Origin: an uncultured Bacteroidales bacterium
Lineage (GTDB): Bacteria > Bacteroidota > Bacteroidia > Bacteroidales > UBA4417
Length of the DNA stretch: 64,000 bases
Direction: 5' to 3'
Assembly: GCA_903879715.1 (NCBI GenBank)
Contig: CAIRMR010000077.1
Coordinates: 27,239-91,238 of the forward strand
The notes beneath the pieces are model-generated. The model was not told where the DNA came from. It saw only the letters and a list, made by a program, of their open reading frames with translations, and searched no databases. The translations under genes were made by a program, and so were the position numbers. This document shows positions 53,920-61,372 of the stretch, in pieces (positions within the stretch are counted from its first letter, which is position 1; the number at the start of each line of letters is the position of its first letter).

Positions 53920-54456
53920 ATGAAAGGTAAAATTTATTTATTGGCGTTTTTTCTTACAATTTTCATGTCATGTTCAAAAGAGAACAATTCAACTAAACAA
54001 GGATTTACTTATTCCAATTTTGAGAATAATTTAAAATCTGACATGAATTATAATTCAATTGTTGCAAAATTTGGAGAACCTTCGAATGACATTGGAAGTG
54101 GCATCCATATTTATGTTTACCAATTGATTGATTCCACAGAAATTTGGATTGGATATGCTGATAAAATCATATATGCAAGGCATATGGATAAAAATCAACA
54201 AATCTTAAATACAATTATTGAGGATAAGCCATATTCGCTAACGTATGATTATTTTAAGGATAATCTGAAACCTGATATGATTTATAATTCAATTGTTGCA
54301 AAATTTGGAGAACCTTCGAATGACATTGGAAGTGGCATCCATATTTATGTTTACCAATTGATTGATTCCACAGAAATTTGGATTGGATATGCTGATAAAA
54401 TCATATATGTAAGGCATATGGATAAAAATCATCAAATCATTGAGAATATAATTTAA
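53920..54456 (+). CDS. lipoprotein with two near-identical BamE/SmpA-like domains
   Basis: Lipobox FMSCSK; two copies of MIYNSIVAKFGEPSNDIGSGIHIYVYQLIDSTEIWIGYADKIIYxRHMDKNxQI. Confidence 0.75.
   Translation: MKGKIYLLAFFLTIFMSCSKENNSTKQGFTYSNFENNLKSDMNYNSIVAKFGEPSNDIGSGIHIYVYQLIDSTEIWIGYADKIIYARHMDKNQQILNTIIEDKPYSLTYDYFKDNLKPDMIYNSIVAKFGEPSNDIGSGIHIYVYQLIDSTEIWIGYADKIIYVRHMDKNHQIIENII
54048..54204 (+). repeat. intragenic direct repeat, copy 1 (157 bp)
   Basis: Matches 54282-54438 with 2 mismatches by eye; offset 234 bp (78 codons). Confidence 0.95.
54282..54438 (+). repeat. intragenic direct repeat, copy 2 (157 bp)
   Basis: See copy 1. Confidence 0.95.
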
Positions 54457-56647: not shown

Positions 56648-57532
56648 CTAAGTATTCCTGATCAAAGCTTTTTCAGTATAAATGGTTTTGTTTTCCTTTG
56701 ATAATTCTATGATTGAATAAAACAGTTCCTCCGGGTGCGCTATAAAAAACCGGTTTCCTTTAACTGTGATATTCCTGCAAATGGATTTCTTAATGTTTTT
56801 TTTCAGAAACCCATTGATATTATTATTTTTGATTTGCGGATGAGCTGCCAGCGTTTTTACGATCTCAAACGTACCATCTTCTTTCTTAATCTTTGCTTCG
56901 AATACTTGATCCAGCCTGGTTTTTATAGGAAATTTCTGTTTCATTACATCTTCCGGACAGTGCACGAACGACATAAAATTCGCGTTCACACCAATTCCGG
57001 CTATAATGCCGCCCATTTGCATTGCCAGGTAATACGGACTTTTTTCGCCACAAGGATAAATATCTGTATGATGTGATCCGGTAATAGCTTCTGCATTTTT
57101 ACCAATAGCGACAATACTGTTGATCGGGTGAAGGCTGCGTTTTGCACCCGGATAGCGTCTTGCCATTTCCGACAACATTCCCAAAGCCGAAGCTGAACGG
57201 CGAACATCAAAAACCTTTCCTGACTTCAGGTATTCCTCGGCCCGGTATGTAAAATGCCAGCATGGAAAAACAAGAGTGCCTGCTACACCCACAGTTTCGA
57301 GTAAGATTTCGAGCAACCTGAGCGCATCGAATTTGATATTCAGATTATCAACTGAGCTGTGGATGAAGACAATAGAACCCTTCGAAATATTCAATTCTTC
57401 GGTTAATATTCGGCTGAATTTCTGTTCGCTGAGAGGCGCATACCAGGTTTCCAGAATTGTACGGTAAATTCCCCTGAGACGTATAAAAACCTCCTGTGGA
57501 AATAATCGGAATATGATACGGCTGATGAACAT
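56648..57532 (-). CDS. AAC(3)-family (aminoglycoside N3-acetyltransferase-like) acyltransferase
   Basis: ISKGSIVFIHSSVDNLNIKF, GTLVFPCWHFTYRAEEYLKSGKVFDVRRSASALGMLSEMARRYPGAKRSLHPINSIVAIGKNAEAITGSHHTDIYPCGEKSPYYLAMQMGG; start moved to 57532, directly after the upstream stop codon. Confidence 0.88.
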   Translation of the reverse strand: MFISRIIFRLFPQEVFIRLRGIYRTILETWYAPLSEQKFSRILTEELNISKGSIVFIHSSVDNLNIKFDALRLLEILLETVGVAGTLVFPCWHFTYRAEEYLKSGKVFDVRRSASALGMLSEMARRYPGAKRSLHPINSIVAIGKNAEAITGSHHTDIYPCGEKSPYYLAMQMGGIIAGIGVNANFMSFVHCPEDVMKQKFPIKTRLDQVFEAKIKKEDGTFEIVKTLAAHPQIKNNNINGFLKKNIKKSICRNITVKGNRFFIAHPEELFYSIIELSKENKTIYTEKALIRNT

Positions 57533-57533
57533 G

Positions 57534-58583
57534 CTAATCGGTCTGGTTCTGTTGATATAAATGCTCGAAAGTTGTAAATTCAATGTCAGGGTATTTTTCA
57601 CGCGCCATTTGAATAAACTGCTCCATCAACGTGAATGAATAATCACCCATAGTTTTTGGATGAGAGCAGGTAGCCAGGTTGAGTGTTTCAAAATGCCTGA
57701 ACTTCTGAACATTGTAATCCAGTATCCGCATCAGGTATTTCGCCGAAAGGGTATGGTTATCGAATGTTAGCATACGAGAAGAAAACAGCATCCGCAGTTG
57801 CTCCATCCGGCTTCCAGGATTTCCTTCATGTATCATTGTTCCGTGACTTTCCGGTGCCCTGTAAGCAAAGTGCTTTAATTTAAAGCGCGTCGGTATTTCG
57901 AAAGGCGTTTTGGGAATGGCGGCTACCGGTATTTCTAAAATACCTGAGCCGGCTGACCTTCTGAAATCGCCGTCGTTCCCGATATACCAGTTAGGCATTG
58001 GCGGCACTTTCCTGAAATCAATCAGGGATAATGAGGATACAAAATAATATTTCAGAACAACAGAGCTGTCGTACCGGATTCCGTTTTTAGCCAGTTCATT
58101 GAAAATTTCTTCCGATCCGGGTTCTATATTATAACCTCCGGCCCTGAAAGCAAGTACGTTGTAATCACTTTTAGCTTTCCGGCAAACTTCCTCAAGTAAT
58201 GTTGTACCCATTTTCACAATACCACCAATGCTTTGCTCAATATTGTTTTCGAAATTTGTCAGGCTATAATCTCCCGAAGGAATCACAACTCCATTTACGT
58301 AGCCGGAAGTCAGCCAATGAGGATGCAGATGAAGTTGTACATCATGTCCAAGCCCAACGGCTTTTTGTAATTGATTAGTATATGGCTTATAAAAACCCTC
58401 GTTATCCCATTCTTTATAACGTATGGCGCTAAGAACATCGGTAAATAAAGTAACAGGGACATCGTTTCTACTGGCTGATTCAAAAAGTCGTTCGGTAGGA
58501 TCGAAAAGTGCTTTCTTGTAAGTTGTTTTCAGGCTGCCCAAAGGTAACTCATGATCGAAAGTCAGTAACAGCCTTATTTTCAT
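57534..58583 (-). CDS. NodB/WalW-like polysaccharide deacetylase family protein
   Basis: LLTFDHELPLGS, GHDVQLHLHPHWLTSG, VLAFRAGGYNIEPGSEEIF. Confidence 0.8.
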   Translation of the reverse strand: MKIRLLLTFDHELPLGSLKTTYKKALFDPTERLFESASRNDVPVTLFTDVLSAIRYKEWDNEGFYKPYTNQLQKAVGLGHDVQLHLHPHWLTSGYVNGVVIPSGDYSLTNFENNIEQSIGGIVKMGTTLLEEVCRKAKSDYNVLAFRAGGYNIEPGSEEIFNELAKNGIRYDSSVVLKYYFVSSLSLIDFRKVPPMPNWYIGNDGDFRRSAGSGILEIPVAAIPKTPFEIPTRFKLKHFAYRAPESHGTMIHEGNPGSRMEQLRMLFSSRMLTFDNHTLSAKYLMRILDYNVQKFRHFETLNLATCSHPKTMGDYSFTLMEQFIQMAREKYPDIEFTTFEHLYQQNQTD

Positions 58584-58591
58584 TTGCGTCC

Positions 58592-58828
58592 TTAAAATTG
58601 TTTGCTTTCGATAAGTGAAACCAGGTCGGCAATGTTTTTTATTGAAGCCAGTTCCTTGAAGTCGAAATCAATATCCAGTTTTTCTTCGATAGCAGTTATT
58701 AATTCAGGATGTGTAAGGGAATCCCAGCCATTTAATGTGTCAGGCGAATCGGCCAACGTAAGTTTAAGCCCGGGCCTTTTAAGTAAAGCAGCAAAAATCT
58801 CAGTTATTGTATCAACGGTTGTTTGCAT
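58592..58828 (-). CDS. stand-alone acyl/peptidyl carrier protein
   Basis: 78 aa; phosphopantetheine site LNGWDSLTHPELITAIEEKLDIDFDFKELASIKNIADLVSLI. Confidence 0.92.
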   Translation of the reverse strand: MQTTVDTITEIFAALLKRPGLKLTLADSPDTLNGWDSLTHPELITAIEEKLDIDFDFKELASIKNIADLVSLIESKQF

Positions 58829-59497
58829 TTATCTCAATTTTATTTCCATCAATACCCGGGTATTTCCCGAATAAAAATTCAAAATCGTAGGATTCAACGA
58901 AGTCTTTTCTTCAATGCTTTCAAATCCATATTTCTGATGTGCCCGTAAAGATACTGAATTCTGCTTTATCAGCTGGACATGGGCGGCTTTCACCTCGGGA
59001 TGTTTCTTTGTCAGATCACTTAGTAAGGCCTTTACCAGCATGCTGCCAATATTATGACCGCGAAATTGCTCAACGATATAAATAGATTCAAATTGTATCG
59101 TTCCGGCTTTTCGTCTGATCGAAATTTCATCAACGATTGGTGCCGATAATTTGTAGTTAATAATATTTTCCTTTTTCAGAAATGTCTTTAACGCACTGAT
59201 TTTCAATATGCCTGAAGCAATTCCGTTTTCACTTTCAAGCCAGGCTCCGTAAGCCCCTGCTTGAGCTCCATTAACTTCGGCGATTTTAAAATTAGCCAGG
59301 CTAAACTCAAAATTACCAATTTTCTCTTCAAGTATTTTTCTTAATACGGTTCTGAATTCTGACTCATTGATACCGAATAGTTTACAATAACTTATTGAAT
59401 TCCCCTTGCCTTTTTCAGCTTGTACAATAGTTTCGATTATAAACTCAATATCTGAGTCTGCCGCATTCCTGATCTGGATTCCTGGCTGCATTTCCAT
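58829..59497 (-). CDS. GNAT family N-acyltransferase
   Basis: ESIYIVEQFRGHNIGSMLVKALLSDLTKKHPEVKAAHVQLIKQNSVSLRAHQKYGFESIEEK. Confidence 0.88.
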   Translation of the reverse strand: MEMQPGIQIRNAADSDIEFIIETIVQAEKGKGNSISYCKLFGINESEFRTVLRKILEEKIGNFEFSLANFKIAEVNGAQAGAYGAWLESENGIASGILKISALKTFLKKENIINYKLSAPIVDEISIRRKAGTIQFESIYIVEQFRGHNIGSMLVKALLSDLTKKHPEVKAAHVQLIKQNSVSLRAHQKYGFESIEEKTSLNPTILNFYSGNTRVLMEIKLR

Positions 59498-60993
59498 CAG
59501 TTAATTTTTATGATCTGATCCGTTAATTCCCTTTTGTCGATCTTTCCGTTCAGGTTATATGGAATGTTTTTTACAGGATAGATGTTTCCGGGAAGCATAT
59601 AGTCTGGTATCTTCTTTGAAAGAAATTCAACAATTTCGTCTTTATTTAATTCAGCTTTTGAAGTATAAACCAGGTTAAGCACCTGCTGGCCATTTTTATT
59701 ATTTGAAGTAACAATCACTACTGCTTCATCAATTCCGGGAAAATTTTGTGCGTGAAATTCCAGTTCATTGATTTCAACACGGTAACCGTTAATCTTTACC
59801 TGGCTGTCATTCCTTCCACTGAAAAAATAATCACCATCTTTATCTATCCGGCAAAGATCGCCTGAACGATAAAATACTTGCTTTTCAATAGCAAAGAATG
59901 CTGTTTCATTCTTCCCGGGATCATCGATGTATCCAGATGTTAGTTGCGAGCCGCTGATACAGAGTTCTGCATTCGTTTCAAGTGCTCTGACAGGTAAATT
60001 TCCTTCGAAGAGTCCAAATTCAGTATCTTTAAAAGGTTTGCCAATGCAGGCTATGCCATGATATTCTTTAAATGTATTCTGGTGACAAATATATGAAGTG
60101 CAAAATATGGTGGCCTCTGTCGGGCCATAAACATTATATGTAACAGCATACGGTACGCTTTTTTGCCATTCCTTAACCAAATCAGATTTTAATGCTTCGC
60201 CGCAAAACAACCAATGTTTAATTGAAGGAAGTGTGATTTTTTTAAAAAATGGTTTCAGGTAACCCACAAATGATGGAACACTTAAAACATGGGTTATGCT
60301 TTGTTCTTCAATCAACTGTATCGCGGCCATCTGCTTAAAAGGAGTTTTCGGCAGCGTAAAAACCGATGCGCCATAAAACAAAGGAACCAGGTACGAAAAT
60401 ACCGAAAGGTCAAATGTAAGTTCAAATACCTGCAGAAACCTGGATTGTTCATTAATATCCAGATTCATACGGTTAACATTATCAACAAATGCCATTAAGT
60501 TATCCATGCTGATTGGAACACCTTTTGGTATGCCAGTGCTGCCGGAGGTGAAAAGTATATAAGCCGGATTATCAGTTTGAGTTACTTTTAACTCTGATAT
60601 GTCTTTTTCTCCTTTTTCAGCCTGAAAAAACAGGTGATTATTTGTCGCGCGGAACTCGTCACTAAGACCTGAAAAATCGGAGCAAAATATGGAACTTACT
60701 TTTGAAAGCCGGATAATATGCGTGTTTCGCTCATCCGGGTGGGTTGGTTCAATTGGAATATATGTAATACCCGATAGTAAAGCGGCCAGTATGGTAGAAT
60801 ACGTTTCAAAATCCTGGTTGGCAATTATACCTATTGCGTTTAATCCGCTATTGTTTTGAAGGAGTGAAGATTGAATCCTGGCTACACTCTGTATCAATTG
60901 AAAATAAGTATAATTTTTCCCATCGATATTAAACGCAATACTATCTGGGTAAGTCTTAATGGATTTATAAAGGATTTGTGAAAGGCTTGTCAT
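59497..60993 (-). CDS. stand-alone adenylation enzyme (AMP-binding, DltA/NRPS-A-domain type)
   Basis: NPAYILFTSGSTGIPKGVPISMDNLMAFVDNV, TYNVYGPTEATIFCT, FYRSGDLCRIDKDGDYFFSGRNDSQVKINGYRVEINELE, IPYNLNGKIDKRELT. Confidence 0.93.
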   Translation of the reverse strand: MTSLSQILYKSIKTYPDSIAFNIDGKNYTYFQLIQSVARIQSSLLQNNSGLNAIGIIANQDFETYSTILAALLSGITYIPIEPTHPDERNTHIIRLSKVSSIFCSDFSGLSDEFRATNNHLFFQAEKGEKDISELKVTQTDNPAYILFTSGSTGIPKGVPISMDNLMAFVDNVNRMNLDINEQSRFLQVFELTFDLSVFSYLVPLFYGASVFTLPKTPFKQMAAIQLIEEQSITHVLSVPSFVGYLKPFFKKITLPSIKHWLFCGEALKSDLVKEWQKSVPYAVTYNVYGPTEATIFCTSYICHQNTFKEYHGIACIGKPFKDTEFGLFEGNLPVRALETNAELCISGSQLTSGYIDDPGKNETAFFAIEKQVFYRSGDLCRIDKDGDYFFSGRNDSQVKINGYRVEINELEFHAQNFPGIDEAVVIVTSNNKNGQQVLNLVYTSKAELNKDEIVEFLSKKIPDYMLPGNIYPVKNIPYNLNGKIDKRELTDQIIKIN

Positions 60994-61372
60994 TACGTTT
61001 TTAAATTCGGATTTATTTCTGGTGTGTTACGGCCCCAATAACCATTTCGAATAGCATGTGTTAACTGTGACTAACAGGCCGAAACACTTTTGCTATTCTA
61101 TTTCAAAAATACTCATTTATACTGAAGTTGATGCAATATTGTTAATTCTTTATAGATCAAGCCTTGTATGAAGGTCGCCAATTTGAAAATAATCAGGTAA
61201 TTTAGCGAAACATAAATATCTGGTTCATTACTACTGATTTTATCAACTAATCAGAGGGAAAACATCCCTGCTCTTTTTTTTCCAATGAAGTTAGTTTGAG
61301 AATCCATAAATAATTAATTTTATCCCCCAATTGCTCTCCGAAAAAACACCTTAAGTTATTTATTCCTTTTTT

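Follow-up and report, generated by a model that had tools for sequence, protein, structure and literature searches.

A five-gene operon of an uncultured Bacteroidales bacterium as a probable carrier-dependent N-acyl-exchange cassette for a cell-envelope amino sugar

The stretch of DNA analysed here is a 64,000-nucleotide window (contig CAIRMR010000077.1, positions 27,239 to 91,238) of the 6.07-Mb metagenome assembly of an uncultured Bacteroidales bacterium (GCA_903879715.1), and its subject is a minus-strand operon at positions 56648-60993. The five co-directional open reading frames (ORFs) of this operon, which are nearly gapless, encode in order a stand-alone adenylation enzyme (A), a GNAT N-acetyltransferase, a carrier protein, a predicted deacetylase (DAC) and an N-acyltransferase of the AAC(3) fold (AAC3). 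From this parts list, and from the swapping of its modules between genomes, we conclude with moderate confidence that the operon serves carrier-dependent N-acyl exchange on a cell-envelope amino sugar. In a cassette of this kind A would adenylate glycine or alanine and load it onto the dedicated carrier, on which GNAT would acetylate the amino acid at its amino group. DAC, probably acting in the cytoplasm at the nucleotide-sugar or lipid-linked level, would take an N-acetyl group off an amino sugar, and AAC3 would pass the carrier's (N-acetyl)aminoacyl group to the amine thus exposed, with the substrates, the order of the steps and the N-acetylation of the aminoacyl group being as we infer them. 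An initial annotation of the window had described the same five genes and their junctions, which are borne out, and had proposed activation on the carrier followed by transfer to an amine exposed by the deacetylase, which the present analysis supports.

The genes and their products are as follows.
59497-60993, minus strand: A, 498 amino acids (aa), stand-alone amino-acid adenylation enzyme, DltA/AlmE-like (PF00501, E=6.4e-54)
58829-59497, minus strand: GNAT N-acetyltransferase, 222 aa (PF13673, E=4.4e-6), with the acyl-CoA loop RGxNIG
58592-58828, minus strand: carrier protein, 78 aa (PF00550, E=3.1e-6; alignment)
57534-58583, minus strand: DAC, predicted CE4-fold deacetylase, 349 aa, with the variant NodB motifs FDHE, HLHPH, RAGG and HPK
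56648-57532, minus strand: AAC3, AAC(3)-fold (Antibiotic_NAT) N-acyltransferase, 294 aa (PF02522, E=1.2e-31)

The stop codon of A and the start codon of GNAT share one base (TGATG, 59499-59495), the GNAT stop at 58829 abuts the carrier start at 58828, the spacing between carrier and DAC is 8 bp, and DAC and AAC3 meet at TAG-C-ATG (57536-57530), where the ATG at 57532 is taken as the most likely AAC3 start, the listed ORF beginning at GTG 57601 and overlapping DAC. The phosphopantetheine serine of the carrier is, by alignment, S37 within GWDSL (codon 58720-58718), and a phosphopantetheinyl transferase of family PF01648 is encoded in the same genome. The Pfam search found no condensation or thioesterase domain in the five proteins, A scores below both DltA cut-offs (NF003417, 301 against 476 bits; TIGR01734, 297 against 560 bits), and the operon has neither an MBOAT protein nor DltD; as first annotated, it is thus neither a standard nonribosomal peptide synthetase nor a Dlt system.

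The complete gene set, in identical order, is found in three further genomes of the genus (G009, G005 and G013), with A enzymes that are 45-74% identical, and two more (G003 and G008) keep the matching order as far as a contig edge inside A. This recurrence among relatives argues that the operon is not a chance grouping. In G010 and G028 the DAC-AAC3 pair is kept and A-GNAT-carrier is replaced by a carrier, a FabG-like short-chain dehydrogenase/reductase (SDR) and another AMP ligase. The operon is therefore made of two recombined modules, A-GNAT-carrier and DAC-AAC3. For these gene contexts and those that follow, genes were called with a simple ORF caller and identified against small reference sets, such that absence means that none was seen within the fetched stretch. 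A scan of the contig collection for DAC returned one close relative only. In G005 DAC and AAC3 are set apart by some 290 bp of repeat-like DNA, and low-complexity repeats (of WLLVAGCW type when translated) lie between DAC and AAC3 at locus L020 (14151-14540) and just after AAC3 at L021 (4500-4838).

The cassette reading draws in part on the DAC-AAC3 module. DAC homologues are present in 51 of 395 genomes of the class, and within four genes of DAC, at 45 loci, the neighbours include AAC3 (27), VimA-like (22), WecB (21), VimE-like (16) and SDR (10) genes. DAC and AAC3 co-diverge over 28 loci with r=0.94 (Mantel 0/5000), a value that shared ancestry inflates. The 12 carrier-associated loci, the window among them, group together in the DAC tree with support of 100/100, and the loci of VimE operons fall on the opposite side. 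A carrier gene is nearby in every one of the 12 loci, and yet the loaders are of at least four kinds: A with GNAT in the window-type loci; an SDR with an AMP ligase, either without LuxE/LuxC at L021 and L023, where the carriers were called by their DSL motif and that of L021 has no Pfam match, or with LuxE and LuxC at L056 and L055/L200; FkbH at L170 (TIGR01686, E=3e-83); and a KAS III-like protein at L171/L172. A single DAC clade with such unlike loaders, and always with a carrier, is in keeping with a donor of acyl-carrier type whose acyl group can be exchanged; the acyl-donor module of the cassette changes from locus to locus and the deacetylase-transferase pair stays constant. A similar set of carrier, SDR, ligase, LuxE and LuxC is found in the flagellin glycosylation islands of Aeromonas (PMC7874193).

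The enzymes of this constant pair are recognised by fold and motif. DAC has no Pfam match, and by sequence leaves only a trace to TIGR03006 (E=0.0014); its AlphaFold model (pLDDT 89.7), however, matches CE4 polysaccharide deacetylases (3rxz, E=4e-8, TM 0.49/0.58), and D10, E12, H85, H87, H89, R147, G149, H308, P309 and K310 are invariant in 26 homologues, such that DAC is a predicted deacetylase of CE4 fold with NodB-type motifs. AAC3 lies above the PF02522 gathering score (110.5 against 25 bits) and retains the HSS, RSxHPxxS and HxxED motifs.

Which amino acid would the first enzyme select? A scores 302 bits against TIGR01733 (cut-off 317) and carries, by alignment, the A3 motif LFTSGSTGIPKG and the A10 lysine, the catalytic motifs on which the initial annotation had made its proposal depend. 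The best PDB match to its pocket region is 4oxi, which we take to be AlmE, followed by DltA structures. In the alignments the window and two relatives share the pocket code DLFFLCVIFK, to be compared with DLMFLCTVA in DltA and DLHVFCLIA in 4oxi. Asp235, Cys301 and Lys517, all retained in the window enzyme, point to an alpha-amino acid, and the bulk of the pocket residues to a small one; by these established code positions the substrate would be glycine or alanine, and the pocket is probably of DltA/AlmE type. The role of AlmE in glycine attachment has been described (PMC12930378).

And which sugar would receive it? The most likely acceptor, held tentatively and as a claim of its own, is a Wbp/Vim-type diamino sugar of the kind used as linking sugar by the type IX secretion system (T9SS). 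For Porphyromonas gingivalis it is proposed that VimE deacetylates this sugar and that VimA aminoacylates it (PMC7468200). Relatives of the window genes stand beside vim-like genes in two separate arrangements. Flavobacterium-type genomes, our name for a single, densely sampled genus (f69 g73) with many related genomes in the counts, have the order WecB-VimE-AAC3-DAC-VimA-UPRT. A second operon type, recovered by an AAC3 search of the order, encodes a 400-aa toroid-like protein, A, carrier, a 161-aa GNAT, a divergent AAC3, VimE and VimA, and mostly adjoins a dnaX-like gene. It is present in eight genomes of four Bacteroidales families (G580, G481, G684, G602, G557, G452, G603 and G506; loci L174, L177, L179, L180, L181, L182, L188 and L190), and in two more where contig ends cut it (G487 and G644; L178 and L183), the partial loci bringing the families to six; in G602, G557, G452 and G506 the ORF caller reported no carrier ORF, and the space for a carrier is present. 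Most A enzymes beside VimE have the pocket DLHxFCLIAK, close to 4oxi/AlmE. At L183 the VimE-AAC3-GNAT-carrier-A set is adjoined by a DAC of the window clade. In the window's own genome the arrangement recurs with dnaX-like, VimE-like, VimA-like and UPRT genes, the A-carrier-GNAT-AAC3 insert being missing from it; a genus-wide search for the insert's AAC3, run to see whether the window operon takes the place of the insert, gave only weak matches to the window type. Around vimEA and one WecB-like gene of that genome, the places where Wbp genes were looked for, none stood out. The genome also has two tandem PorU-type T9SS sortase genes (G000:C24:64958-72097; L140 and L141), both over the curated cut-off. 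The VimE-type domain DUF7033 is found in 331 of the 395 class genomes, so that co-occurrence with VimE says nothing; only adjacency was used.

Several observations weigh against this reading. The T9SS target rests on relatives rather than on the neighbourhood of the window operon, which has neither VimE/VimA nor a glycosyltransferase next to it in its own genome. At only about 25% identity to the window pair, and with no adjoining carrier gene, the DAC-AAC3 pairs of Flavobacterium-type genomes may differ from it in function. The sets beside VimE differ from the window in their GNAT (161 aa) and gene order, and their AAC3 is divergent, with HSS lost and the HP motif partly lost. The VimE and VimA assignments are themselves matches below cut-off (167 against 440 bits to the equivalog for VimE of the own genome). 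Finally, once N-acetylated, an aminoacyl group could no longer offer its own amine to PorU: the GNAT product would block the nucleophile, in which case the modification might sit on the linker's second amino group or on a different sugar. That the operon is a tRNA-independent carrier route to an amino-acid-bearing linking sugar for PorU attachment, replacing or supplementing VimA, with the acyl group set by whichever loading module is plugged in and linkers differing accordingly among Bacteroidota, is for the present doubtful. The link to the envelope or A-LPS (anionic lipopolysaccharide) suggested in the initial annotation is backed independently by the VimE/VimA linkage of relatives, and for the window operon itself this target is a candidate. 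The divergent C25 peptidase gene from which that link had been drawn recurs only in one close relative, G009; G005 and G013 lack it at their operons, and this neighbour was set aside as weak evidence.

The same chemistry might instead serve a sugar of O-antigen, exopolysaccharide or another glycan unrelated to the anchoring of T9SS cargo, and this has a real chance of being correct, if a somewhat smaller one than the linking sugar. The surroundings of some DAC loci speak for it, since L055/L200 and L022 lie near glycan genes and not vim genes: a glycosyltransferase and a flippase near L055, a sugar-aminotransferase-like gene adjoining the L055 carrier and an RmlA-like gene near L022, the last two read from sequence. 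A PMT-like gene lies upstream of L020, and these glycan surroundings are likewise in keeping with the amino-sugar cassette as such. Precedents exist in the carrier-dependent N-acylation of O-antigen Qui4N proposed for WfpD/WfpG of Flavobacterium psychrophilum (PMC6519341) and in the N-acetyl-L-alanyl-Qui3N of an Aeromonas capsule (PMC8625153). Against this stands the repeated adjacency of AAC3, and of DAC, to VimE/VimA in the two arrangements described above and at L183.

On the role of GNAT the initial annotation, which had listed GNAT with AAC(3) as folds that transfer acyl groups to amines, is revised. Its model (pLDDT 94.7) matches canonical acetyl-CoA-dependent GNAT folds (1u6m/4m85). A class-wide GNAT search of the 395 genomes found A with GNAT, mostly with a carrier, in about ten other genomes, where the triad is usually followed by members of one protein cluster, the three scanned being MBOAT acyltransferases, and sometimes by GDSL-lipase-like proteins; several of these A enzymes have the pocket DLMILCVIFK. 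At L100 GNAT and carrier are fused as one protein. As the triad is kept with an MBOAT transferase, and as GNAT and carrier can be fused, GNAT is assigned to the activation step and more likely acetylates the carrier-bound amino acid than the sugar. The earlier statement that a Dlt partner is missing holds for the window operon, but not for the triad, which a Dlt-like MBOAT accompanies in these other genomes. Loci L100-L116, in which A-GNAT-carrier is followed by MBOAT, show a Dlt-like layout in Bacteroidia with an extra acetyltransferase, and our literature search found no paper on such loci; separately, a cluster of the window's own genome (L024, G000:C163:15000-34900) holds several MBOAT-like proteins, as read from sequence, with carriers and an AMP ligase.

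Were GNAT not to acetylate the aminoacyl group, AAC3 would transfer it unmodified, and the sugar so formed would bear an N-glycyl or N-alanyl group whose amine is free. The known T9SS linkers are of just this kind, carrying serine or glycine (PMC7468200) or alanine, the biosynthesis of the last being unknown (PMC11969387), and AlmE/AlmF and DltA/DltC deliver free amino acids (PMC12930378). Such a product is nonetheless unlikely: GNAT stays with A and carrier whichever kind of transferase follows, forms one protein with the carrier at L100 and has an acyl-CoA loop, which makes action on the carrier-bound amino acid very likely. Far less probable still is small-molecule tailoring or aminoglycoside resistance, with AAC3 acetylating an antibiotic in a minor secondary-metabolite cluster, for which PF02522 membership and the AAC(3)-type HP motif could be cited, and which was rejected on scores and context, AAC3 being far below the NCBIfam AAC_3 cut-off (67.9 against 270 bits), paired with a CE4 deacetylase and a carrier, and found in glycan and vim contexts.

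An N-alanyl deoxyhexose linker was found in Prevotella intermedia in 2025, and the pathway that adds alanine to the deoxyhexose was stated to be unknown (PMC11969387). For a linker of this alanine type the operon and its relatives offer a delimited candidate chemistry, made up of an A-domain and carrier, a CE4 enzyme and an AAC(3)-fold transferase, and a function would follow for genes annotated as AAC(3), which are usually read as antibiotic resistance.

Two further features of the window were recorded.
61104-61136, minus strand: promoter-like site of Bacteroidota type (TTG ... TATTTTTG), a weak candidate matched by pattern between the divergent genes, its distance upstream from the start of A being 111-143 bp
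53920-54456, plus strand: small lipoprotein-like ORF with two near-identical halves (internal duplication of FGEPSNDIGSGIHIYVYQLIDSTEIWIGYADKIIY)

How does the operon compare with known systems? With the Wbp/Vim pathway of P. gingivalis and Tannerella forsythia (PMC7468200) it shares the proposed division of labour between a CE4-type deacetylase, VimE, and an amino-acid transferase, VimA, and relatives of DAC and AAC3 stand in the same operons in Flavobacterium-type genomes. Unlike that pathway, it has A-domain activation on a dedicated carrier and an extra GNAT; DAC has no match to the VimE model, AAC3 is not of the VimA family, and the VimE-like and VimA-like genes lie elsewhere in the genome. 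AlmEFG, which adds glycine to lipid A in Vibrio cholerae, likewise employs a stand-alone A enzyme and a small carrier to load a small amino acid for lipopolysaccharide modification, whereas here GNAT and a deacetylase are added and the proposed transfer is by an AAC(3)-fold (PF02522) enzyme to a sugar amine rather than by AlmG to lipid A. D-alanylation by DltABCD also combines a DltA-like enzyme with a small carrier, and the triad is followed by MBOAT in other genomes, although MBOAT and DltD have no counterpart in the window operon. WfpD/WfpG of F. psychrophilum (PMC6519341), also from Bacteroidota, pairs a dedicated carrier with an acyltransferase acting on a nucleotide amino sugar, but its transferase is of PglD type, its loaders are fatty-acid-like, and neither an A-domain nor a deacetylase is named there.

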